This document shows positions 9,658 through 38,983 of a stretch of 38,983 nucleotides of DNA, piece after piece. Made by a program: the position numbers and the translations under genes. Numbering within the stretch: position 1 is the stretch's first letter; each line of letters begins with the position of its first letter. The notes under the pieces were generated by a model. The model searched no databases. It saw nothing but the letters and a program-made list of their open reading frames with translations, and was not told where the DNA came from. Source of the DNA: a virus; IMG/VR virus record IMGVR_UViG_3300009103_000072, positions 1 to 38,983 of that record; one strand, 5' to 3'.

Positions 9658-11337
9658 ATGAGTTTCAAGTCCAACACCAACCCGATGTTCCGCTCCAAGT
9701 TCAGCGAGGACATCTTCAACCACAAGTATCGCCATGAAGGTGCGGAGACTTGGGAGCAGCTTTGCACCACTCTGGTTAATCACGTCTGTAAGGGGCTGAT
9801 GACCAAGACCGAGATCGACCAGCTCCGTCAATACATGGTCGACATGAAGTTCATCCCAGGCGGTCGCTATCTCTATTATGCTGGGCGCCCGAACGCCTTC
9901 TTCAATAACTGCTACCTCCTGAAAGCCGAGGAAGACAGCCGTGAGGATTGGGCCAACCTGTCATGGAAGGCCGAGAGCTGCCTGATGACGGGCGGGGGCA
10001 TCGGGGCCGACTATTCGGTCTACCGACCCGAAGGCTCACCGATCGCCCGCACAGGCGGTTTCGCTTCCGGGCCGATCCCCAAGATGCAGATGCTCAACGA
10101 GATCGGGCGTCGCGTGATGCAGGGCGGTTCGCGCCGATCGGCCATCTATGCGAGCCTCAACTGGCAGCACGGGGATGCCGACAAGTTCCTGACCGTCAAG
10201 GATTGGGACCAGTACCCGGTGGGCAACACCGGCCTGACCCTGGCCGACATCAAGCAGCAGGATTTCAACTTCCCCTGTCCGCTGGACATGACCAACATCT
10301 CGCTCAACTACGACGATGCCTGGCTCAACCTGGGGGAAGAAGCCCGTGCGATGCACCCCATCTTCCTCAAGAACGTCCGTCAGGCCCTCAAGACCGCCGA
10401 GCCGGGCTTCTCCTTCAATTTTGGAGACAAGCAGCATGAAACGCTGCGAAACGCCTGCACCGAGGTCACTTCGGCAGACGATAGTGACGTATGCAATCTC
10501 GGTTCTGTTAACCTTGGCCGCATCGAATCTCTCGCGGAGATGGTCTCCGTCACAGAGCTTGGGACCAAGTTCCTACTATGCGGCACCCTTCGCGCCCATC
10601 TTCCCTACGACAAGGTAGGCGAGACCCGCGAGAAGAACCGCCGCCTCGGGCTGGGCCTGATGGGTCTCCACGAATGGCTTATCAAGAAGGGCTACCGCTA
10701 TGAAGTCACCCCCGAGCTTCGCAACTGGCTCGCCGTTTACGAGCAAATCTCCGACGCAACGTCTATGGCCTTTGCGGATCGCCTCTGCATTAGCCGTCCT
10801 GTGGCTAATCGAGCCATTGCGCCGACCGGCACCATCGGGATCTTGGCAGGCACCACGACCGGCATCGAGCCGCTGTTCGCTGTCGCTTACAAGCGCCGCT
10901 ACCTGAAGGGCGATAAGGATTGGCATTACCAGTATGTCGTTGATGGCACCGCTCAGGAGCTGATTGACCTCTACGGGGCCGACCCTGAGAAGATCGAGAG
11001 CGCCGTGGACCTCGCCTCAGACTTTGAGCGCCGTATCTCCCTCCAGGCCGACATCCAAGACTTCGTGGACATGGCCATCTCGTCCACCATCAATCTTCCG
11101 CAATGGGGATCGGACCTGAACAACGAGGGCACCGTTGAGGCATTCGCCAAGACGCTCTCGAAGTATGCCCCGCGTCTTCGCGGCTTCACCTGCTACCCCG
11201 ATGGTGCCCGCGGAGGCCAACCCCTGACCCCGTGTGACTATGCGACCGCTAAGGCCAACCTCGGCCAGGAGTTCGCGGAAGCCACCTACCACGACATCTG
11301 CGACATCTCGGGCAAGGGAGGCTCCTGTGGCGTGTGA
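9658..11337 (+). CDS. nrdJ: Adenosylcobalamin-dependent class II ribonucleotide reductase
   Basis: The gene encodes 559 aa from ATG 9658, chosen because the earlier ATG 9613 is buried in a terminator stem. It is predicted to reduce ribonucleotides to deoxyribonucleotides with vitamin B12 coenzyme. Catalytic residues are visible: redox pair Cys85 (NNCYL) and Cys279 (SDVCNLGSVNL), and the radical cysteine Cys267 within Asn265-x-Cys267-x-Glu269. The motif APTGTIGILAGTTTGIEP and a C-terminal cysteine tail (GKGGSCGV) follow. No small NrdB subunit lies nearby, which fits class II. There is no N-terminal ATP-cone. B12-dependent RNR is a hallmark of cobaviruses. The host must supply or take up cobalamin. 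The stop overlaps the next gene. Confidence 0.92.
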   Translation: MSFKSNTNPMFRSKFSEDIFNHKYRHEGAETWEQLCTTLVNHVCKGLMTKTEIDQLRQYMVDMKFIPGGRYLYYAGRPNAFFNNCYLLKAEEDSREDWANLSWKAESCLMTGGGIGADYSVYRPEGSPIARTGGFASGPIPKMQMLNEIGRRVMQGGSRRSAIYASLNWQHGDADKFLTVKDWDQYPVGNTGLTLADIKQQDFNFPCPLDMTNISLNYDDAWLNLGEEARAMHPIFLKNVRQALKTAEPGFSFNFGDKQHETLRNACTEVTSADDSDVCNLGSVNLGRIESLAEMVSVTELGTKFLLCGTLRAHLPYDKVGETREKNRRLGLGLMGLHEWLIKKGYRYEVTPELRNWLAVYEQISDATSMAFADRLCISRPVANRAIAPTGTIGILAGTTTGIEPLFAVAYKRRYLKGDKDWHYQYVVDGTAQELIDLYGADPEKIESAVDLASDFERRISLQADIQDFVDMAISSTINLPQWGSDLNNEGTVEAFAKTLSKYAPRLRGFTCYPDGARGGQPLTPCDYATAKANLGQEFAEATYHDICDISGKGGSCGV

Positions 11338-12759: not shown

Positions 12760-12932
12760 CCTGTCCCCCGATCCCCCCCGGCGATGCAAGCCGCGACGAA
12801 TCGCGACCTGTCAAAGCGTGGGTTTGACGTTGCCAGCCTATCGGCCAGTTCTTCCGCGACGTGGCGAACAGGGCCTAGCGCACCCGCCGCACGAACGGCC
12901 CCGGCGATCAGCTCAAAGTCGCGCCTAGTCAT
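12756..12932 (-). CDS. 58-aa conserved-type phage protein in minus-strand module
   Basis: ATG 12932 overlaps the end of the peptidase gene by 8 bases, and a GGAGG ribosome site lies 8 bases before it. This is strong start evidence. The product opens MTRRDFELIAGAVRAAG, continues VRHVAEELADRLATSNPRFD and ends RSRFVAACIAGGDR. The pattern R-x-D-[FY]-x-x-I-A...A-x-x-L-A...N-P-x-F-D-x-x-R-F occurs in many small phage proteins from different hosts, as I recall, none with a known function. It is predicted to be helical. Its presence indicates the antisense module is phage-derived and not inserted host DNA. Confidence 0.75.
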   Translation of the reverse strand: MTRRDFELIAGAVRAAGALGPVRHVAEELADRLATSNPRFDRSRFVAACIAGGDRGTG

Positions 12933-14070
12933 GGTCCCAGCCTCCCACGACCGAAAGGGCCTCCCCGAGCGCAGACGGCGAAAGCACGTCTAGGATTTCA
13001 TCTACGCCCAGCCCGTAATTGTTCAGGACATCCGCCGCCGCTTCAGGGAACCTCTCGACCAGGGAAACGAGATCCGCGCTTGCGCCGCCTTCCGTCTCCC
13101 ATGCCTTTGCGCCCGTCCGCGATCCGCTGGCGACAGTGCCCCAAGTCTTGGAAGGATAGCCGAAGGTAAAGCCGCCTCCGGACCCATAGCCCCAATCGTC
13201 TAGCGTAGGGTCCCGCTCGACCGCCACGCCCGCAAAGTCCGCCTTCACCAGCGCTTCACCCAGGCGCCACAGGTGCAACCCGTCTAGCGTCTCCCGTGGC
13301 CCGTGTTCGCTGTCATAGCCCACCGAGATGTTGCAGCATTCCGCAATATGGTCAGCGTAGGAGTAGCTATCCGTATAGCTCCCCGTATCATCCGCCCGAT
13401 ACCGCAAGCCGCGCCCGGAGACGTTAAGCGCCGCCGAGAGGGTGTCAGCAAAGGCCGCAGAGGCGCAGCGCCTGCCCATTTGGTGGGTGATAACGTCCGC
13501 GTAGTCCCGGCGATCGAAAGCAACGCAGGCGTCATAGCCGGTCAGTCTCCCGGCCTCCCGCGCCGCCACATGCTCAGACCCAAGGCGCCCGACCTCTTCC
13601 CCCCGGTGGAACACATAGCCCCCAGGTACGCCCGCCCGCAGCATCCGCAGCAGCAGCCAGACGCCCGCGCCATCATCCGCACCCAGGCAGCGCCCCGGCT
13701 TGCGCTTCACAAGCTCGACCGTGCGCCCGTCATCCGCAAACTGGACAGCTTGCCGCCCGCCCTTCGCGTGAACCGTATCCACATGGCAGGACCAGAGGAT
13801 TTCAGGCCCCGTGAAGCCTTCCGGACGCGGCACCCGCGCCCAGATGTTGCCGAAGTCGTCAATGTCCGCACGAAGGCCGAGAGCCTTCAGGGGCGCCAGG
13901 ACATGGACGTGCATAAACTCTAGTTCAGCATCCGACCCATGCGGACGCGCCCAGGAGAGAATATCGAGCAGTTCCCCCAGGCCCTCGCGCATTGTCTCCA
14001 GTTCACCAGGGACAGGCGAGGGGCGACCGAAAGGAACGCGGGCCAGCTTTTCAAATGCAACCTTAGTCAT
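12925..14070 (-). CDS. Zinc-dependent M28/M20-like peptidase
   Basis: The gene encodes 381 aa. ATG 14070 is chosen; the frame is open 32 codons further but those codons have no domain-like content. The complete two-zinc aminopeptidase/carboxypeptidase signature can be read: His96-x-Asp98 (SCHVDT), bridging Asp132 (LGADDGAG), general base Glu158 with zinc ligand Glu159 (RGEEVG), Asp187 (VAFDRR) and His256 (NISVGYDSEHGP). The last two segments mirror cellular peptidase-T and M42-like enzymes. No signal peptide is present, so action in the cytoplasm is expected on peptides or amide-linked substrates. The C-terminal 100 residues (from GSGGGFTFGYPS) are unlike the family and may be an added domain. 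Such a gene is unusual in a podovirus. It shares a transcript with a 651-aa zinc-type protein. Confidence 0.85.
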   Translation of the reverse strand: MTKVAFEKLARVPFGRPSPVPGELETMREGLGELLDILSWARPHGSDAELEFMHVHVLAPLKALGLRADIDDFGNIWARVPRPEGFTGPEILWSCHVDTVHAKGGRQAVQFADDGRTVELVKRKPGRCLGADDGAGVWLLLRMLRAGVPGGYVFHRGEEVGRLGSEHVAAREAGRLTGYDACVAFDRRDYADVITHQMGRRCASAAFADTLSAALNVSGRGLRYRADDTGSYTDSYSYADHIAECCNISVGYDSEHGPRETLDGLHLWRLGEALVKADFAGVAVERDPTLDDWGYGSGGGFTFGYPSKTWGTVASGSRTGAKAWETEGGASADLVSLVERFPEAAADVLNNYGLGVDEILDVLSPSALGEALSVVGGWDHD

Positions 14071-14096
14071 GGTGGATAATCCCAAATAGTGGACGA

Positions 14097-16052
14097 TTAG
14101 GCCGCAATGGCCGCAGCCGTCCCCGCCTCGCTGGCATCGCGCAGTTCTTCGCGCTCCCGGTGGCATTCACCGCACAATTCGACCGCCGCGCCATCTTCAT
14201 CTTCCGCGCAGTCGTGGCGCTGATCCAGGGCGAACGCCTCGAAGCAATCCGCGCACTCGAAGGCATCTTCACGCCACACACCGTCCGCGCATTCCAGCGC
14301 CAGGCCCGGAAGGTGCCAATCTGCTACGGCGACTTCCCACCGGCCCCCCGAAGGCACGTAATCCGCCCTGTTATTGTCAGAGACGTGCTCCCCCGACCGC
14401 TCGCAATAGAATGCGTCACTATCCCGGCAGTCGCTGCACCACGTTTCAGAATCATGCCTGCCCACATAGACCGGGGATGCGTCATCCTCCGGGGTTGATT
14501 CCCCGCAGCGGTCACAATCGACCTTTTCCCGCGCGTAAATCAGGCCATCCGTGCGCGTGGCGGATAGGTCCCCGCCCGCCGTGAAATGGTCCCCACAGTC
14601 ATCCACCGTTCCGCCGCCAATATCGAGATACGGCATCACGAAAGTCGCTGCGCCGTAAGTCGGGCAAGGAATCTTGGCGATCCGTGCGCCCCGCAGGTCC
14701 CCCGAGCTATAGCCCATCGCCTCCAGCGCCGTGCGCAGCGCCCGCGCATTGTGTGCCTGCCCATAGACCCGCCCGTATTCCATGCGGCCCGAATTGTCGC
14801 TGTCATCCCAGACCAGGCACCGGGCAAGCACCGGGCCTTCCCCGTCCCAGGTGGCGCCAGGATCAATATCGCCCTCGCTGCACCCTTCCGGCATATCGTC
14901 CTCATCATAGCCCCGGATAAGGGCCACGGTGATTTCACCGCCTTGCGCATAGGCCGCAGTGGGATGGAAGCCATCACGACCGCACGAATAGTTCGAGCTG
15001 GACCCAGACATGCAGCCATGTGCCTCCCCGCCGCTGCAATCTTGGTAGACACGCGCCAGGGCCTCAGCGTCCCCGAGAGGGGCGAACAGGGGCTTAATGG
15101 AGGCGCCCAGCATCGCCGCCGCGAATTCGTGCCTCTCGCTTTCATACCAGAAGCGCTTGCGAACAGCGCGGTCAGGGGAAATGCGGTTCTCATAGTTGGA
15201 GAAGAAGCGGGCCGCATACTCACTAGCCGATAGGACCTTTTGCCTATCCCGCTCCCCGCTTGCCTCGCTTTCCGTGAAGGCGACCTTATGCTTATCGCCT
15301 TGCGCCACATGGGCGAAGTGATCCGGATAGGCATCCGCGATCCGTTCCGCGAACGGGGAAGGCAGGGGCAGGTACTCACCCGAGGCGAGCCGCGCCGCTT
15401 CACGCGCCCGCCAGTCGACCACCTTAGACGGATCGACCTCGACCTTGACGATAGCCAGCGACTTGCCCCCATCGCGATACAAGGCCCGGTTTGCGTTGGC
15501 CCAATCCGCCGCCGCCTTGCCGTCCCCGGCCTCATGGACGCAGGCCCACGCGCCGCGATCCGTCCCTTGCACACCCGCCCGAACCTCGAAGCGGATCGAG
15601 ACGCTAGGCGCCTCGGCCCCGACCGGATCGACAGGAGCGACAGGGGCAGGGAGATTGACGGGGAAGGCCGCAGCCGCGTGATAGGCCGACAAATCGGCAT
15701 CATGGGCGAGCAGGTCCGCAGGCCAGCCATGCGCCCCCGCCAGGTCCTCAGACCCCGCAGGGACGAACAGGGGGCGCGAGACACGCAGAATGACCCCATC
15801 GCCGCACGAATTCGCCTCACTCAGGTCAATCGCATCCGAAGGATAGACCGCGTAGCGGGCAGTCGGCTCAGGGGCGCTAAGGCCGTAGGAGCGCGATGCA
15901 GACGCAGCGACGGCACGTGCGCGGGCCTGATCCCTGAACATCTCCAGGGGCAGGCCACCGAAGACCGAACGAGGCATGAAGGCGAGGGACGAGGGGCGAC
16001 CAGTGCGGGCCAGATCGAGAGCCGAACCATGAAACACGACGATAGAGAACAT
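14097..16052 (-). CDS. 651-aa modular protein with multi-cysteine C-terminal domain
   Basis: The gene starts at ATG 16052, with GGAAGG about 10 bases upstream. The N-terminal third is Ala/Pro-rich. A middle region (about residues 265-490) includes RFWYESERHEFAAAMLG, VYQDCSGGEAHGCMSG, GRVYGQAHNARALRTALEAM and RIAKIPC...FVMPYLDIGGG. This block resembles proteins of unknown function seen in other tailed phages, as I recall. The C-terminal region (about 511-640) holds repeated pairs: CDRC, CSDC, CERSGEH, CADC, CGEC, with further His and Cys. Two or more zincs in treble-clef or LIM-like modules are likely. No nuclease or protease motif is certain. A 26-base gap separates it from the peptidase gene, so the two are co-transcribed. 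Role unknown; a nucleic-acid or protein-binding adaptor is plausible. Confidence 0.85.
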   Translation of the reverse strand: MFSIVVFHGSALDLARTGRPSSLAFMPRSVFGGLPLEMFRDQARARAVAASASRSYGLSAPEPTARYAVYPSDAIDLSEANSCGDGVILRVSRPLFVPAGSEDLAGAHGWPADLLAHDADLSAYHAAAAFPVNLPAPVAPVDPVGAEAPSVSIRFEVRAGVQGTDRGAWACVHEAGDGKAAADWANANRALYRDGGKSLAIVKVEVDPSKVVDWRAREAARLASGEYLPLPSPFAERIADAYPDHFAHVAQGDKHKVAFTESEASGERDRQKVLSASEYAARFFSNYENRISPDRAVRKRFWYESERHEFAAAMLGASIKPLFAPLGDAEALARVYQDCSGGEAHGCMSGSSSNYSCGRDGFHPTAAYAQGGEITVALIRGYDEDDMPEGCSEGDIDPGATWDGEGPVLARCLVWDDSDNSGRMEYGRVYGQAHNARALRTALEAMGYSSGDLRGARIAKIPCPTYGAATFVMPYLDIGGGTVDDCGDHFTAGGDLSATRTDGLIYAREKVDCDRCGESTPEDDASPVYVGRHDSETWCSDCRDSDAFYCERSGEHVSDNNRADYVPSGGRWEVAVADWHLPGLALECADGVWREDAFECADCFEAFALDQRHDCAEDEDGAAVELCGECHREREELRDASEAGTAAAIAA

Positions 16053-23443: not shown

Positions 23444-26335
23444 ATGCCCATCGTCGAGATCGACGGCGTGGGCCGCGTCGAATTGGACGACGGCTTTCTC
23501 CAGATGTCCCCTGCCCAGCAGGAAGCGACCATCAACGAGATCGCCGCGTCCGCTCGTCCGCAGGCCAAGCACAGCTCCCCAGCTCCCCAGCAGCAGGCTC
23601 CAGACCCTGCGCAGATGCAACCCGCCCCTCCGATGGGCGAAATCCCCCCCGCGGCTCCGCAGCCTGCATCTCCACGACCTGGCGGAACCAACTTCGATTT
23701 CGACGCAATGGAGCGTGATTTCCAAGAACAGCAACGCCGCGAGCGTTCGCAGGGTGGACGCACTTCTGCCTACCCGCAGGCTGATAAGACTTCGACATTG
23801 GGGGCCGCGGGTCTTGGCGCGGTTGACGGTCTATCCTTCGGCTTCGACGACGAGATTGGTAGCGGCCTAGCGGCTGTCATTCCCGGCATCGGCAAACGGT
23901 CGATCTGGGACGGCTCTAGCCTGTCTGATGCTTTCGACGCTAACGTGAAGGCATACCGCGGCACGAAGGACGCAGCTTTCAACGAGCACCCCCTCGCCTA
24001 TCTTGGCGGCGGCGTTGCTTCCGCGTTCTTGCCGTGGGGCGCCGCAGGTAGCCTCGTATCTGGCGGGCGCGGTATCATTGGGGCCGCCAAGGCCGCAGAA
24101 GCGCTCGGGACTGCGAGCAACGCCTCTCGCTTCACCAAGGCCGCAAAGAACGGCATTCTCGCCGGTGCCGCATACGGCGCAGGTAGCGACACCGGAGGAA
24201 TCACCGACCGCCTCGACGGGGCCGCGACAGGTGCCGCCATTGGCGGCGGTCTGGGTCTGGCAGGCGAAGCCGTGATCGGAGGCGCCCTCCGTGCGTTGCC
24301 GAAGGCCAAGGCCATGCGGTTCGCCCAGCGCGAGGCCGAGAGGAACCCCTACGCGGCCTACGATGCTGAAGTTGTCGCTGACCTGGAAGCGGCAACCAAG
24401 GATCGTGCTGTCACGGCTACCGACCCCAAGGGCCGCGCTGCCCTGACCGCAAAGACGATCAACAGCGTCGAGCAGCGCTACTTCTCGGAATACAAGAACA
24501 TCATCAATTCGATGGACGGTCTTCCGGACGTGGACAAGCTCCGTCTCAAGGCGGCGCTGACCGGGAAGCACTCTCTCCCTTCCGGCGAGATCGACGCCTT
24601 GCGTGGTACGGTCGAGGGGGACGCGGTGGCCGATGCTATCGTGAAGGTGCAGCGCCTGCGGGCACTGACCCCGGAGATCCGCCGGTCTAACGGGCTGCTG
24701 GCTAAGGTCGCAGGTGCCGTAGACTTTATCCCTGGCGTCCCTCCTGGCGTGGGTAACACGATCCGCAAGGTCGGCAGGGCTGTGGGTGACGGCGAAGCTG
24801 CCCGCGTAAACGCCGCGGAGAAGCTGCTGGCGAAGAAGCGCGGCTATGCAAAGCTGCAAGAGATGGTCGGGCCGTCCGGTCAGGTCGAAAGTAACGCCGC
24901 ACTGTGGCAAAAAGTTGCCGATCAGGCAGAGGAGAAAGCCGGAAGCTCGCTGGACGCCCAGATCGAGAAGGTCATTGAGGGCACCCGTAAGGATGTCTCC
25001 AAGCGCTTCAGCGTTTCCAAGAAGGATCCTGACTACATCAACTTCAGGAACCGCAACTTCGATCCCGACGCAGTAGCGGAAGCCCGCGACATCGCCAACC
25101 GGCGACGCAAGCTGAAGTCTGCGTCTGGCAAGCTCGCAAACGATCAGGACAACAAGCTCGCACAGTTCGACGAAGCGCTCAACGCCGCGCCGCCTGAACC
25201 ACCGGCCCCGAAGGACCCGACGAAGAAGGAACTGTCTGACTTCCGCAAGTCCATCACGGACCCGACGCCAGACATGCGCGACCTGAACGATCCGGTCCCC
25301 ACTGACCGGGCACTCGCAAGCAGGGTTCAGAACCGCAACAAGGCCCTAAACAAGCTCGAATCCGCACAGTCGGATTGGGAGGCCAAGCTGGCCGATCCCT
25401 CGACTGCGCCACAGCCGAAGGTAGTCAAGCTGCCCAGGGCAGGGGCCAAGGACGCGATCGTCGAGAGCAACATCGAGCAGGGAATCGTAGGCGAGAGCGG
25501 TACGCATAACGCCTTCACCCAGCGCGTGGGCGTCACCAAGGACGACCTCATGCGTATCCTGGATCAGGCGCAGGAGGATCACCCGGCAATCGCGTCGGAA
25601 CTGAACCGCATCCGCTTCAACTACCCGACCAAGGATCGCACGTTTGGTTCGGCCATCGTTCCTAAGCTGAAGGCTATCCGCGACAAGCTCGGTATCGAAC
25701 CCGTGGCGTCTGAGGCCAAGGCCGCGGCTGAGGCTGCTCCAGTCAAGATCGACGAGGCCGCTCAGGAGCGTCTGGCCGGCGCGACCGAGGCGGCGGCGCC
25801 GAAGCTCACCGGAAAGGCGCTTGCTCGGGAACAGGAACTACTCACCCGCTTGGATGAGATTGACCCCGAGCGTATCAGCCTCGGTGACGGTCCTGCCATG
25901 CGCGACAGTGAAGCCGGGGTCCTCACCGATCCGGCCAAGCTGGAAGAGGCGAGTAAGATCAAGGACGAGCTTCGTCAGCTTCGTCAGGTGGATCGCCCCA
26001 TTCAGTGGACTGAAGGCAAGGGCCGCTACCAGGCCCTGGCGAACGGAGCGATCGACGATCTGAACAATGACATTCGGATCGACGGGGCTTCCCTCGCGGC
26101 AATCAAGAGGGTCCCCGAGAAGATCAGGGATAGCTTCAAGACCACCGACGAGGCGACCGCCTTCATCGAGAACGAAGTGATCCCCGAGCTGGAAGTGGCG
26201 AAGGTCCCCCGTGACGAGATCGACCAGATCAAGGGCTACCTCTACGAGATCGCAAGCCACAAGCCATACGCGACCAAGGAAGCCTACGAGGCCGGGACGA
26301 AGGCCAACCCACGCGGGCGACCGCGCAAGCAATAA
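23444..26335 (+). CDS. Large internal virion / ejection-type protein
   Basis: The gene encodes 963 aa from ATG 23444. It opens with a small domain (MPIVEIDGVGRVELDDGFLQ, SPAQQEATINEIA) common at the start of phage ejection and tail proteins. Residues about 115-300 are Gly/Ala-rich and hydrophobic (GAVDGLSFGFDDEIGSGLAA, GILAGAAYGAGSDTGGI), giving several segments that could contact membrane. The long remainder is charged and helical, with coiled-coil character. Size and place match the biggest core protein of podoviruses (T7 gp16 analogue). I do not see the catalytic glutamate motif of a lytic transglycosylase, so peptidoglycan-cutting activity is not supported. Confidence 0.75.
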   Translation: MPIVEIDGVGRVELDDGFLQMSPAQQEATINEIAASARPQAKHSSPAPQQQAPDPAQMQPAPPMGEIPPAAPQPASPRPGGTNFDFDAMERDFQEQQRRERSQGGRTSAYPQADKTSTLGAAGLGAVDGLSFGFDDEIGSGLAAVIPGIGKRSIWDGSSLSDAFDANVKAYRGTKDAAFNEHPLAYLGGGVASAFLPWGAAGSLVSGGRGIIGAAKAAEALGTASNASRFTKAAKNGILAGAAYGAGSDTGGITDRLDGAATGAAIGGGLGLAGEAVIGGALRALPKAKAMRFAQREAERNPYAAYDAEVVADLEAATKDRAVTATDPKGRAALTAKTINSVEQRYFSEYKNIINSMDGLPDVDKLRLKAALTGKHSLPSGEIDALRGTVEGDAVADAIVKVQRLRALTPEIRRSNGLLAKVAGAVDFIPGVPPGVGNTIRKVGRAVGDGEAARVNAAEKLLAKKRGYAKLQEMVGPSGQVESNAALWQKVADQAEEKAGSSLDAQIEKVIEGTRKDVSKRFSVSKKDPDYINFRNRNFDPDAVAEARDIANRRRKLKSASGKLANDQDNKLAQFDEALNAAPPEPPAPKDPTKKELSDFRKSITDPTPDMRDLNDPVPTDRALASRVQNRNKALNKLESAQSDWEAKLADPSTAPQPKVVKLPRAGAKDAIVESNIEQGIVGESGTHNAFTQRVGVTKDDLMRILDQAQEDHPAIASELNRIRFNYPTKDRTFGSAIVPKLKAIRDKLGIEPVASEAKAAAEAAPVKIDEAAQERLAGATEAAAPKLTGKALAREQELLTRLDEIDPERISLGDGPAMRDSEAGVLTDPAKLEEASKIKDELRQLRQVDRPIQWTEGKGRYQALANGAIDDLNNDIRIDGASLAAIKRVPEKIRDSFKTTDEATAFIENEVIPELEVAKVPRDEIDQIKGYLYEIASHKPYATKEAYEAGTKANPRGRPRKQ

Positions 26336-36152: not shown

Positions 36153-36557
36153 ATGATCTGGAACATTATTTCGACTGTCCTCGGGATCGGGGGCGACGCA
36201 CTGGCGAAGCGTCAGAAGCTCAAAGAGATCGAGCTGGAAGGCAAGACGCGCATTGCTGTCGCCCAGGCCGAAGCGGAGATCGCGAGGCTGAACAAGCAGG
36301 GTGACGCGGAGATTGATTGGGACGCAGAGGCCGAGAGGCAAATGGCTCACTCGTGGAAAGACGAGTACCTTACGTTGCTTCTTTCGGCTCCGATGATCCT
36401 CGCATTCCTTGGGGATTGGGGCAGAACCGCAGTTTCTGATGGGTTCGCAGCTATCGCTACGGCACCCGAATGGTATAAGGTTGCGTTTCTCGCATCCGTC
36501 GCAGCGTCGTTCGGAATCAGGGCTTTGGTGAACAAGTTCGGATTCGGGAAAAAGTAG
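36153..36557 (+). CDS. Holin of the three-helix (3TM/GTA) type
   Basis: The gene encodes 134 aa. The N-terminus (MIWNIISTVLGIGGDALAKR) has the first hydrophobic segment. A charged helix (AVAQAEAEIARLNKQ) and then DAEAERQMAHSWKDEYLTLL lead into the second and third segments (LLLSAPMILAFLGDWG and WYKVAFLASVAASFGIRALV). The Q-M-x-x-S-W-K-D-E-Y pattern ahead of two membrane helices is the mark of the 3TM holin family known from gene-transfer agents and alphaproteobacterial phages. It would open the inner membrane at lysis. It is the last gene before the late terminator. Confidence 0.85.
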   Translation: MIWNIISTVLGIGGDALAKRQKLKEIELEGKTRIAVAQAEAEIARLNKQGDAEIDWDAEAERQMAHSWKDEYLTLLLSAPMILAFLGDWGRTAVSDGFAAIATAPEWYKVAFLASVAASFGIRALVNKFGFGKK

Positions 36558-36658: not shown

Positions 36659-36699
36659 CCAAAATGTTTAGGCACAATGGAACACTATCCACATTTTGG
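36659..36699. promoter_or_regulatory. Inverted repeat CCAAAATGT / ACATTTTGG, likely operator
   Basis: CCAAAATGT (36659-36667) and ACATTTTGG (36691-36699) are exact inverted copies separated by 23 bases. They lie 35-75 bases before ATG 36734 of the winged-helix regulator, a natural place for autoregulation. The right arm lies in TATCCACATTTTGG, whose TCCACATTTT complements the AAAATGTGGA at 12161-12170. Confidence 0.55.
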
Positions 36700-36733
36700 G
36701 ATTATATCTCAACTGAAGCGGAGGTTGACCGAG

Positions 36734-37147
36734 ATGCAATTACAGATACATGCGCCACCCCCAATGAGGGTGCCGATCATGCAGGATGAGCCGAACCTGT
36801 TCATGCACAGGGTGCAGATTCGCAACGTCCAAGAGTTCCTGAAGACCTTCACGGACCTGAACCAGACCATCCCGGTCGGCGCGGTCCTGATGTTCCTCAC
36901 CGTGGCCCTCAACGAGGGGCTTTCCCAGGGGGAGCTGGTGGACAAGTCGGGGATCAAGAAGTCCACGGCAAGCCGCTACCTGCTGGACCTGTCGGACAAG
37001 ACCCGAACCGGAGATCAGGGCTACGGCCTGGTCAAGGGGGAGATCGACCCCGACGAGCTGCGTCGCAAGATGTATTCCCTGTCCCCCAAGGGACGAAAGA
37101 TCATCCAGAAGCTCATTCGCTCTGGAGCCAACATCGTCGAGAACTGA
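36734..37147 (+). CDS. MarR-like winged-helix transcription regulator
   Basis: The gene encodes 137 aa. ATG 36734 is preferred to the upstream ATG 36677 because GGAGG lies 10 bases before it and the longer version would run through the operator-like repeat. A helix-turn-helix is clear at about residues 66-92 (GLSQGELVDKSGIKKSTASR), with the wing following (DQGYGLVKGEIDPDELRRKM) and a last dimer helix (KGRKIIQKLIRSG). The opening helix (VQEFLKTFTDLNQTIPVGAV) fits MarR-type dimerisation. Location beside the integrase suggests it is the lysogeny repressor or a switch regulator. It likely binds the repeat upstream of itself and possibly at 12161. The next gene follows at 1 base distance. Confidence 0.85.
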   Translation: MQLQIHAPPPMRVPIMQDEPNLFMHRVQIRNVQEFLKTFTDLNQTIPVGAVLMFLTVALNEGLSQGELVDKSGIKKSTASRYLLDLSDKTRTGDQGYGLVKGEIDPDELRRKMYSLSPKGRKIIQKLIRSGANIVEN

Positions 37148-37148
37148 A

Positions 37149-38525
37149 ATGGCTATCTACCCCGAACGCAACAAGAGCGGAAAGCTGACCGGCTTCTTCA
37201 GGATCGAGGTCCAGAAGGGCAAGGAACGTCTGCGCGGTCGGGCTGAAAGCATGGCCGAAGCAAAAGGGATCGAGGAAGCCCTGAAGGAACGTCTCGCCAC
37301 TGGTGCGACCTGCGCTGCCCCCAAGCGCCGGTCTGCACCGGAGGCCGCACCGTCTCCCACATTGAGGGAGGCGGCTGACCGTGCGAGGGGTACTCTTTGG
37401 TCTGGACAGTCCACAGAAGCGGAAAGTCTGCGAAAGCTGGATCGTGTCATCAAGCTCGTCGGAGAGGGCGTTCGCGTGGACGAGCTGGACATGAACAAGG
37501 TGGACGAGCTGGTGGTCTCCCTGAAGGATGCAGGGGTCAAGGATAGCACGGTCAACCGCTACCTCTCTTGCGTCTCTGCGTTCCTCAAGTTCTGCAAGAA
37601 GCGCGGCCTCCGCAACGTCGAGGTCCCCGAGATCGAATGGCGCGATGAGGACGAGGGCCGCATCCGCTGGCTGACCTACGAGGAAGAGACGCGCCTCTGT
37701 GAGCTACTGCCTCGTCCCTACAACGACGTTGTGTTCGTGGCGATCCGCACGGGTCTTCGCGCCTCCGAACTGCTCAACCTGAAGGAGGATCAGATCGAAC
37801 CGCGCTGGGTCCACCTGTGGGGATCAGACACGAAGAACGGGTCGTCCCGGTCGGTGCCGCTGACCAAGGAAGTCCACGCTGTCCTGATGGCTCTCGTCTC
37901 CGCAGGGATGCCGGGGTATTGGGAACTGCGTTGGGCATGGGAGAAGGCGCGGGAGGCGATGGGCCTGCTCAAAGACCCCACGTTCGTATTCCACAGTTGT
38001 AGACATTCCTACGCTACGAGGGCTGTCCAGGCGGGTGTGAACATCCGGGTCTTGCAGAAGCTGATGGGCCACAAGTCCATCCAGACCACCCTTCGCTACG
38101 CCCATGTGGATGACGAGACGCTGGCCGACGCAGGGACTAAAGCCGTCGCTTTCCACGAGCAAAAGCGCGGGGGAATCGACCGGGGAAAACGAGCAAAATT
38201 CCCCCGTCACGCTGGATCGAGGGGAGCGCACGAACCGCAGAAATCTGCGGGTCTTGGTCAATGGAGTGCCCCCGCACAGGGACTGCAAATCCGTTTACGC
38301 CGGTTCGATTCCGGCTCGGGCCTCCATCGCAGCTGGGTTTCATCCCATAGGGCGCCGATTTCGATCCCAATTGCTGCTGCAATCCCGAGGATAGACCTCG
38401 CGATCGGAAGGGCCCGGGGGCGCTCAAGGCTGGATGATGACGCTGCGGCTTCAGCGCCGCTTATTGATAGCGCAACGTGTTCTCGAACCCGGCGTTGGTC
38501 TTGGCCATCTTGGCCAGTTTCCTGA
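37149..38525 (+). CDS. int: Tyrosine integrase whose frame runs through attR into host DNA
   Basis: The gene encodes 458 aa in this integrated form. It catalyses site-specific recombination between attP and the tRNA-Cys attB. All catalytic residues are seen: Arg204 (TGLRASE), Lys229 (DTKNGSS), His282-x-x-Arg285 (HSCRHS), His308 (MGHKS) and Tyr317 (LRYAHV). An N-terminal SAM-like core-binding domain lies at about 70-160, after a small arm-type domain (MAIYPERNKSGKLTGFFRIE). No stop occurs after the catalytic tyrosine before the attachment core. Residues about 377-393 are encoded by the tRNA-like core, and 394-458 by host DNA. In the free phage the C-terminus must differ. The normal end of the phage form is unknown. 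Confidence 0.92.
   Translation: MAIYPERNKSGKLTGFFRIEVQKGKERLRGRAESMAEAKGIEEALKERLATGATCAAPKRRSAPEAAPSPTLREAADRARGTLWSGQSTEAESLRKLDRVIKLVGEGVRVDELDMNKVDELVVSLKDAGVKDSTVNRYLSCVSAFLKFCKKRGLRNVEVPEIEWRDEDEGRIRWLTYEEETRLCELLPRPYNDVVFVAIRTGLRASELLNLKEDQIEPRWVHLWGSDTKNGSSRSVPLTKEVHAVLMALVSAGMPGYWELRWAWEKAREAMGLLKDPTFVFHSCRHSYATRAVQAGVNIRVLQKLMGHKSIQTTLRYAHVDDETLADAGTKAVAFHEQKRGGIDRGKRAKFPRHAGSRGAHEPQKSAGLGQWSAPAQGLQIRLRRFDSGSGLHRSWVSSHRAPISIPIAAAIPRIDLAIGRARGRSRLDDDAAASAPLIDSATCSRTRRWSWPSWPVS
38235..38250. repeat. Perfect short palindrome near the attachment core
   Basis: CCGCAGA and TCTGCGG form a perfect 7-base inverted repeat separated by two bases. It lies about 30 bases before the attachment core, inside the integrase frame. 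It could be an integrase or excisionase binding site, but arm-site consensus cannot be judged from one copy. Confidence 0.4.
38279..38326 (+). other. attR core: 3' half of a tRNA-Cys gene
   Basis: The sequence holds the anticodon loop CTGCAAA (anticodon GCA, Cys), half of its stem, the variable region, the T arm GCCGG-TTCGATT-CCGGC, the acceptor 3' strand TCGGGCC, and CCA at 38324-38326. The bases before 38279 do not form a D arm or 5' acceptor strand, so the gene is not complete here. The first base pair of the anticodon stem beyond this point already fails. This is the signature of phage integration into a tRNA-Cys gene. The intact gene should lie at the left prophage end, outside the window. 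Confidence 0.85.
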
Positions 38526-38823
38526 GATTGGCGCGGACATATCTTTCAAAGCGCCGGTCGTCATAGATGCCCGTGGTCTGATAGTCGTCCTGCCCCAGCA
38601 AGTCTTTGAGGCGGGCGGCGAAGGCGGTTTGGTCGCCCTGGCGCGCGGCTGCCTTCATGGCGCGGCAGACCCACTCCTCGGCGGCGGCCTTGTCATAGTC
38701 GTCCTGGCCTTCGTAGCCCCGCCGGTCTGCCGCGGTCTGATCAAGACGTGCGGCGTCGATGCGGCGTTCCAACCATGTGCAGACCACGTCGCTTTGCCAG
38801 GGTTTTGCCGAAACGCTCATCAT
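38461..38823 (-). CDS. Host hypothetical protein beyond the prophage
   Basis: The gene encodes 120 aa. Start ATG 38823 (or the adjacent ATG 38820) has GGAGAG just upstream. The product is helical and charged (ADRRGYEGQDDYDKAAAEEW, RFERYVRANLRKLAKMAKT), without cysteine clusters, signal peptide or membrane segment. The tail of the integrase read-through frame overlaps its 3' end on the opposite strand, which is chance because that part of the frame is host DNA. I recognise no family. The long inverted repeat upstream may carry its promoter or belong to a neighbouring element. Confidence 0.6.
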   Translation of the reverse strand: MMSVSAKPWQSDVVCTWLERRIDAARLDQTAADRRGYEGQDDYDKAAAEEWVCRAMKAAARQGDQTAFAARLKDLLGQDDYQTTGIYDDRRFERYVRANLRKLAKMAKTNAGFENTLRYQ

Positions 38824-38881
38824 GCTCTCCACGCTTGTCTGGTAACGGCCTAGGCGGCGTGGACAAATTCCACAACGCCAC

Positions 38882-38980
38882 GGTTGCCCTATAAAAGGCC
38901 CTGGCGAGGCGCGAGGACGAAGCAAGAGTGGGCCTCTTGCAAGGCCGAGCAACGCTGCCAGGGCCTTTTATAGGGCAACC
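38882..38980. repeat. 24-base perfect inverted repeat with an inner hairpin (host side)
   Basis: The segment 38882-38905 is exactly complementary to 38957-38980: it begins GGTTGCCCTATAAAAGG and ends in CCCTGGC. The 51 bases between them contain a second hairpin, GCAAGAG-tgggc-CTCTTGC (38922-38940). It could be a small mobile repeat, a structured RNA or a terminator pair. The window ends 3 bases after it, so the full element may be larger. Confidence 0.7.
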
Positions 38981-38983
38981 CCT

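Follow-up and report, generated by a model that had tools for sequence, protein, structure and literature searches.

In six Novosphingobium elements for which we rebuilt the phage attachment site (attP), the reading frame of the integrase gene (int) continues through the attachment core, and the free form of the integrase ends in a short conserved peptide that integration replaces with a host-coded end. The best explanation, which we regard as probable though by no means secure, is that the 3′ end of int also supplies attP with its left arm and core and that the free-form tail is a signal lost on integration.

Integrase gene and attachment site in the window

The window is the whole 38,983-nucleotide stretch of viral DNA analysed here (IMG/VR record IMGVR_UViG_3300009103_000072, positions 1 to 38,983). 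Family profile matches identify its genes as podoviral, with a T7-like primase/helicase, DNA polymerase, portal, capsid and terminase. Because int runs into a 3′ fragment of a tRNA-Cys gene and on into a host-like flank, sequence comparison identifies the window as the attR side of an integrated T7-like podovirus in Novosphingobium. Neither ARAGORN nor Rfam detected a complete tRNA in the window, which is expected given that attR carries just the displaced 3′ piece of the gene. With the intact tRNA-Cys of N. capsulatum (L003:9974-10047) as the reference for the core, the window aligns at 91% identity over ~560 bp (38280-38838), starting at the anticodon arm from GGACTGCAAATCC. Attachment at a host tRNA-Cys is thus seen in the match of core and flank to an intact site, and also in full attL/attR pairs in relatives. 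In L010, L011, L015 and L016 identity begins at or near CTGCAAA, and this anticodon loop is the likely strand-exchange segment.

The preliminary description had the int frame passing through the tRNA-Cys core into host codons, and this was borne out: the frame exits the catalytic domain, crosses the tRNA-Cys 3′ fragment and ends in host DNA (Table 1). The tyrosine-recombinase residues R204, H282, R285, H308 and Y317 are invariant in the family alignment. A predicted structure of the attR-form protein, of modest confidence, shows a body ordered to approximately residue 338, while the model after residue 341 has very low confidence and this portion is probably disordered; the N-terminal segment (residues 1–51) may be of the arm-binding kind, judging from its predicted fold. 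The catalytic domain is over by residue 323–338 and the core starts at codon 378, and the prophage int therefore retains all of the catalytic body. The tail between body and core contains the peptide PQKSA, which is found unchanged in L010 and as PQNSA in L011.

Three G-rich repeats within the int coding sequence are candidate P-arm integrase sites. By pattern position, the G-rich repeats of relatives lie inside int near codons 343–354 in five of six cases and recur at or past the free-form stop in all six, and we consider them likely arm-type integrase sites. The last part of int would then be coding sequence and at the same time provide attP with its left arm and core. Across codons 335–395 of the window, however, no forward frame contains a stop, and in DNA of 62% GC the read-through of the window taken alone could therefore be a matter of chance.

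The left prophage end (attL, P′) lies outside the record. Exact patterns built from the core and the window's left end had no match in viral contigs, and alignments of int, the gene at 36153 and the RNA polymerase returned related contigs, none with the window's left end. Relative to the circular relative G788, ~6 kb is absent from the left edge of the window, including the single-subunit RNA polymerase gene, which is the next gene after int in relatives that span attP. The window's own attP was therefore not rebuilt, and the proposed tail was tested in relatives.

The HTH regulator gene directly upstream of int is intact, the attachment site being elsewhere, and it is also the neighbour of int in L014, L042, L043 and L044. 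The host gene downstream of tRNA-Cys had no Pfam or PHROG match. Positions 38849-38983, at the contig end, hold a repeated element with inverted repeats, several copies of which occur in N. capsulatum (88–98% identical over ~134 bases); this could be a mobile or palindromic element of small size, and its presence explains the end of the assembly at this point. Elsewhere in the window, two long genes on the minus strand (12925-16052) oppose the direction of the other phage genes; one product is peptidase-like (phrog_4191), and the other, of 651 aa, matched no family.

Table 1 Features of the window, and lengths of integrated and rebuilt free forms of the integrase in six relatives.
Feature	Position in window	Strand	Basis	Integrated form (aa)	Rebuilt free form (aa)
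HTH regulator gene, MarR-like; PHROG transcriptional regulator	36677..37147	+	Profile matches		
int, attR (integrated) form, ATG start	37149..38525	+	Open reading frame, Pfam	458	
N-terminal beta-beta-beta-helix segment, residues 1-51	37149..37301	+	Predicted structure		
Catalytic domain, residues 189-323	37713..38117	+	Pfam PF00589, E 1.2e-22; alignment		
Codon of nucleophile Tyr317	38097-38099	+	Family alignment		
G-rich repeats CGGGGGAA, CGGGGAAA, ATTCCCCC in int coding sequence	38168..38206	+	Pattern positions		
int tail between catalytic body and core, residues 341-377	38169..38279	+	Predicted disordered		
att core, 3′ part of tRNA-Cys(GCA)	38280..38326	+	Alignment with L003		
Anticodon loop CTGCAAA inside core	38283-38289	+	Start of identity in relatives		
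Host-encoded int tail codons, prophage form, ~65	38327..38522	+	91% identity to N. capsulatum		
Host gene downstream of tRNA-Cys	38461..38823	-	Conserved in L003		
int of L010				483	408
int of L011				419	407
int of L012				412	423
int of L013				432	426
int of L015				491	406
int of L016				397	413

Rebuilt attP and exchange of integrase tails in relatives

Relatives were sought across the genus, in 196 Novosphingobium genomes, which yielded nine elements with integrases 41–62% identical. The set used for attP comprises L010, L011, L012, L013, L015 and L016, all from Novosphingobium, with a read-through int and integrases 56–62% identical; these six are related to one another, and those whose size could be measured are mostly islands of 5–11 kb rather than complete phages. 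Both ends lie on a single contig in L010, L012, L015 and L016, whereas the attL tRNA of L011 and of L013 is on a different contig of the same genome, such that the ends were joined across contigs. In each case int was joined to the P′ side of attL within the shared core and then translated.

The attP core lies inside the int frame in all six rebuilt sites, as it does in the attR of the window. Free forms span 406–426 aa and integrated forms 397–491 aa, and every rebuilt free form ends in a tail with [A/S/G]-N-D-[D/N], 12–23 codons past the core (ends TANDD, TANDNDP, ASNDD, SGNDN, YANDNDQNP and STANDDGGVEKP). The ND[DN] motif is coded in P′, and integration swaps in host-coded tails that are unrelated to each other. 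It had been proposed that free and integrated phage make integrases with different tails; this holds in the six relatives, none of which has the same end, or a stop right after the core, in both forms. The proposal would not extend to L014, L018, L048, L050 and the circular phage L044, in which int stops before the core and the same protein would be made in both states.

The elements L010/L022, L012/L030, L015/L025 and L016/L033, of ~5–11 kb, have the same integrase type and occur at the same or similar tRNA sites. Relatives of the large phage protein encoded at 23444-26335 of the window are present in L010 and L016, and L010 also encodes a resolvase; these elements could be phage satellites or remnants.

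A possible signal in the free-form tail

We propose a mechanism in which the int frame of the circular element would traverse the candidate P-arm sites and the tRNA core, enter P′ and, with a short conserved [AS]-N-D-[DN] tail added, stop next to the first repeat there. Integration would recombine int within the core, the anticodon loop being the probable place, and the prophage int would keep the whole catalytic enzyme and trade the free tail for a host-coded end. In this proposal the free tail would be a peptide signal, short and disordered, whose action is confined to Int produced from unintegrated DNA. It could serve for recognition by an adaptor or protease, with a likeness to the beginning of the tmRNA tag, or for a contact within the integrative complex. 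On integration this signal would be lost from all Int made later by the prophage, leaving a record of the integrated state encoded in the DNA itself.

The first of these options is proposed because the hosts' tmRNA tag, ANDNEALALAA in eight genomes, begins with ANDN, and SspB (PF04386) was found in 7/7 genomes checked. SspB binding to the first half of the tmRNA tag is established in E. coli. A more specific version would make the tail an SspB-type tether, through which Int from free DNA is quickly turned over by ClpXP while prophage Int is stable; we consider this doubtful, if well worth keeping in view. The free tails do contain ANDN or ANDD, but they match just this first part of the tag: the residues past ANDN are unlike it, the LAA-type C-terminus that engages ClpX and marks ssrA-type degrons is absent, and L012 and L013 are weaker matches (ASNDD, SGNDN). 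Given the absent LAA end, the likeness to the tmRNA tag is a lead rather than evidence of membership.

Conservation of the free-form tail as protein

The free-form tail may alternatively be a neutral by-product of compaction, in which attP came to lie tightly against int, drift carried the stop codon beyond the core, and neither phage-coded nor host-coded tails have a function. Several observations are compatible with this scenario: the host-coded tails show no kinship and no set length, relatives without the overlap exist, all three frames are open in the window, and the tail is predicted to be disordered. The free-form motif is nevertheless conserved. In dinucleotide-shuffled P′ sequences, with each element shuffled separately, an in-frame ND[DN] before the stop arose in 0–0.6% of cases. 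The tRNA-Cys core, whose sequence is set by the host, is read in three frames across elements (LQIRLRRFDSGSGL, NPFTPVRFRLGPP and DCKSLHAGSIPARAS), and despite this the motif falls in the int frame every time, at a variable distance from the core.

Sister pairs in the tree are L011/L015 and L010/L016 (support 98/98 and 97/95). The two members of a pair differ in frame across the core, by 2 in L011/L015 and by 1 in L010/L016, and in both pairs an indel in P′ brings the difference back to 0 just before the motif. Motif codons differ at four positions between the sisters of the first pair and at three between those of the second, and all seven of these substitutions fall at third positions and are synonymous. 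In L014, whose int terminates upstream of the core, at codon 353, no ND[DN] motif was found in P′. Taken together, the rarity of the motif in shuffled sequences, the restoration of frame, the exclusively synonymous changes and the absence of the motif in L014 indicate that the free-form tail is selected as protein in these relatives, a conclusion that is strong but not final given the small sample of related members. We accordingly judge neutral compaction unlikely; a conserved free-form tail that is removed on integration suggests a switch rather than an accident.

A further alternative is that the P′ piece is conserved as DNA, as a site for Int, excisionase or a host factor, and reads NDD by chance. 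The piece adjoins the G-rich repeats of P′, and L043 has AACGATGACTAG out of the int frame, both of which would suit a DNA element. Against this, the motif keeps to the int frame although the core is read in three frames, the distance between core and motif varies, and the third positions of the N and D codons vary freely while the first and second are fixed, which together make this explanation improbable. Inactivation of Int on integration, known from the archaeal suicidal integrases, and the rewriting of a repressor, known from integration-dependent immunity, are both highly improbable here: an attP inside a phage gene is common to both systems, but the anatomy already contradicts them unless the host-coded tails abolish activity, as the catalytic body ends near residue 338, well upstream of the core, and the regulator gene upstream of int is untouched.

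Relatives without the motif and the free form of the window phage

Not all relatives share the arrangement for which a signal function is proposed. The full-phage relatives L014 and L044 are among those whose int stops before the core, which counts against the reading of the tail as a switch; L018, L048 and L050, which stop there in both forms, are distant relatives. In L049 and L109, which likewise count against it, int reads into a tRNA-Leu core and ends without the motif, with the stop of L109 just past the core. L043 has no tRNA core after int, and its AACGATGACTAG is present one frame off int. A degenerate core pattern search recovered intact tRNA-Cys genes of hosts, none accompanied by a related int except in L042, and searches of plasmid records, and of genomes at the level of the order and the sister genus, returned no close relative and no further close relatives, respectively.

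Two candidates were set aside. L042 reads through the core in another frame and its contig ends 23 bases later, such that attP and attR are indistinguishable, and the P′ of L058 (G117) was left uncounted because its int is decayed and on another contig. The sequence after tRNA-Cys in L058 resembles a P′, one frame giving LADNDNDDP* ahead of GGTGGGGG repeats. In the phage contig of L043, the off-frame AACGATGACTAG has G-rich repeats on both sides (10996-11125). The attP of the circular L044/L191 (G788) has the 5′ part of tRNA-Cys rather than the 3′ part, a mirror image of the window, and the integrases of L048 and L050 (G213, ~50 kb apart) are related, equally oriented and located at one and the same tRNA-Leu; the two are apparently tandem prophages with a common site.

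Phylogenetic analysis placed the window int in a strongly supported clade, of unresolved inner order, with L014, L042, L043, L044 and the two motif-bearing subclades. The window shares its core frame and the PQxSA peptide with L010 and L011, and on this basis its free form would seem likelier to carry the motif than to lack it. It is possible, although we put this forward only tentatively, that the window phage belongs to an alphaproteobacterial family of elements in which integration acts as a protein switch on the lifetime or direction of Int, with the frame repeatedly restored downstream of an unchangeable tRNA core to keep the peptide.

Comparison with known systems

Avoidance of excision after integration by tyrosine integrases is usually credited to excisionases and to Int supply. 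If the proposed mechanism is correct, a tail found solely on integrase produced from free DNA would let the gene itself distinguish, in a simple manner, the integrated from the free state. Annotations of prophage int genes may also carry host-coded ends, in which case the true C-terminus should be read from attP.

Related tyrosine integrases occur in the temperate T7-like podoviruses LUZ100 (Pseudomonas), BB8 (Bordetella) and YIMV22061 (Limnohabitans); they are 31–34% identical to the window int and are followed by a single-subunit RNA polymerase gene, an order also found in L043, L044 and L109. Their annotated integrases are ~347–357 aa long and are without the long tail of the window int.

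In the integration-dependent immunity of mycobacteriophages and Gordonia phages, attP lies in the repressor gene and integration changes the protein (PMC10865867); the mycobacteriophage case had been offered as a parallel. The window differs from it in that attP lies in int while the HTH gene is intact, and the direct precedent is instead Myxococcus phage Mx8. In archaeal SSV-type suicidal integrases attP is in the integrase gene and integration splits the gene into inactive pieces (PMC8371274); in the present elements integration leaves the catalytic domain intact and exchanges no more than the end of the protein.

For Myxococcus xanthus phage Mx8, a review places attP within the int coding sequence and describes integration as giving int a new 3′ end, with an enzyme that is active but changed in behaviour (PMC6070905). 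The overlap of attP with int is thus already known, and the arrangement is alike, with the C-terminus likewise swapped in our six relatives. The present elements differ in using the core of a tRNA gene as attP, in an alphaproteobacterial podovirus and related islands, and the Novosphingobium elements add a conserved short free-form tail and frame compensation through the core. Within the literature searched, an end peptide confined to the free form, together with frame compensation around a tRNA core, appears to be new.
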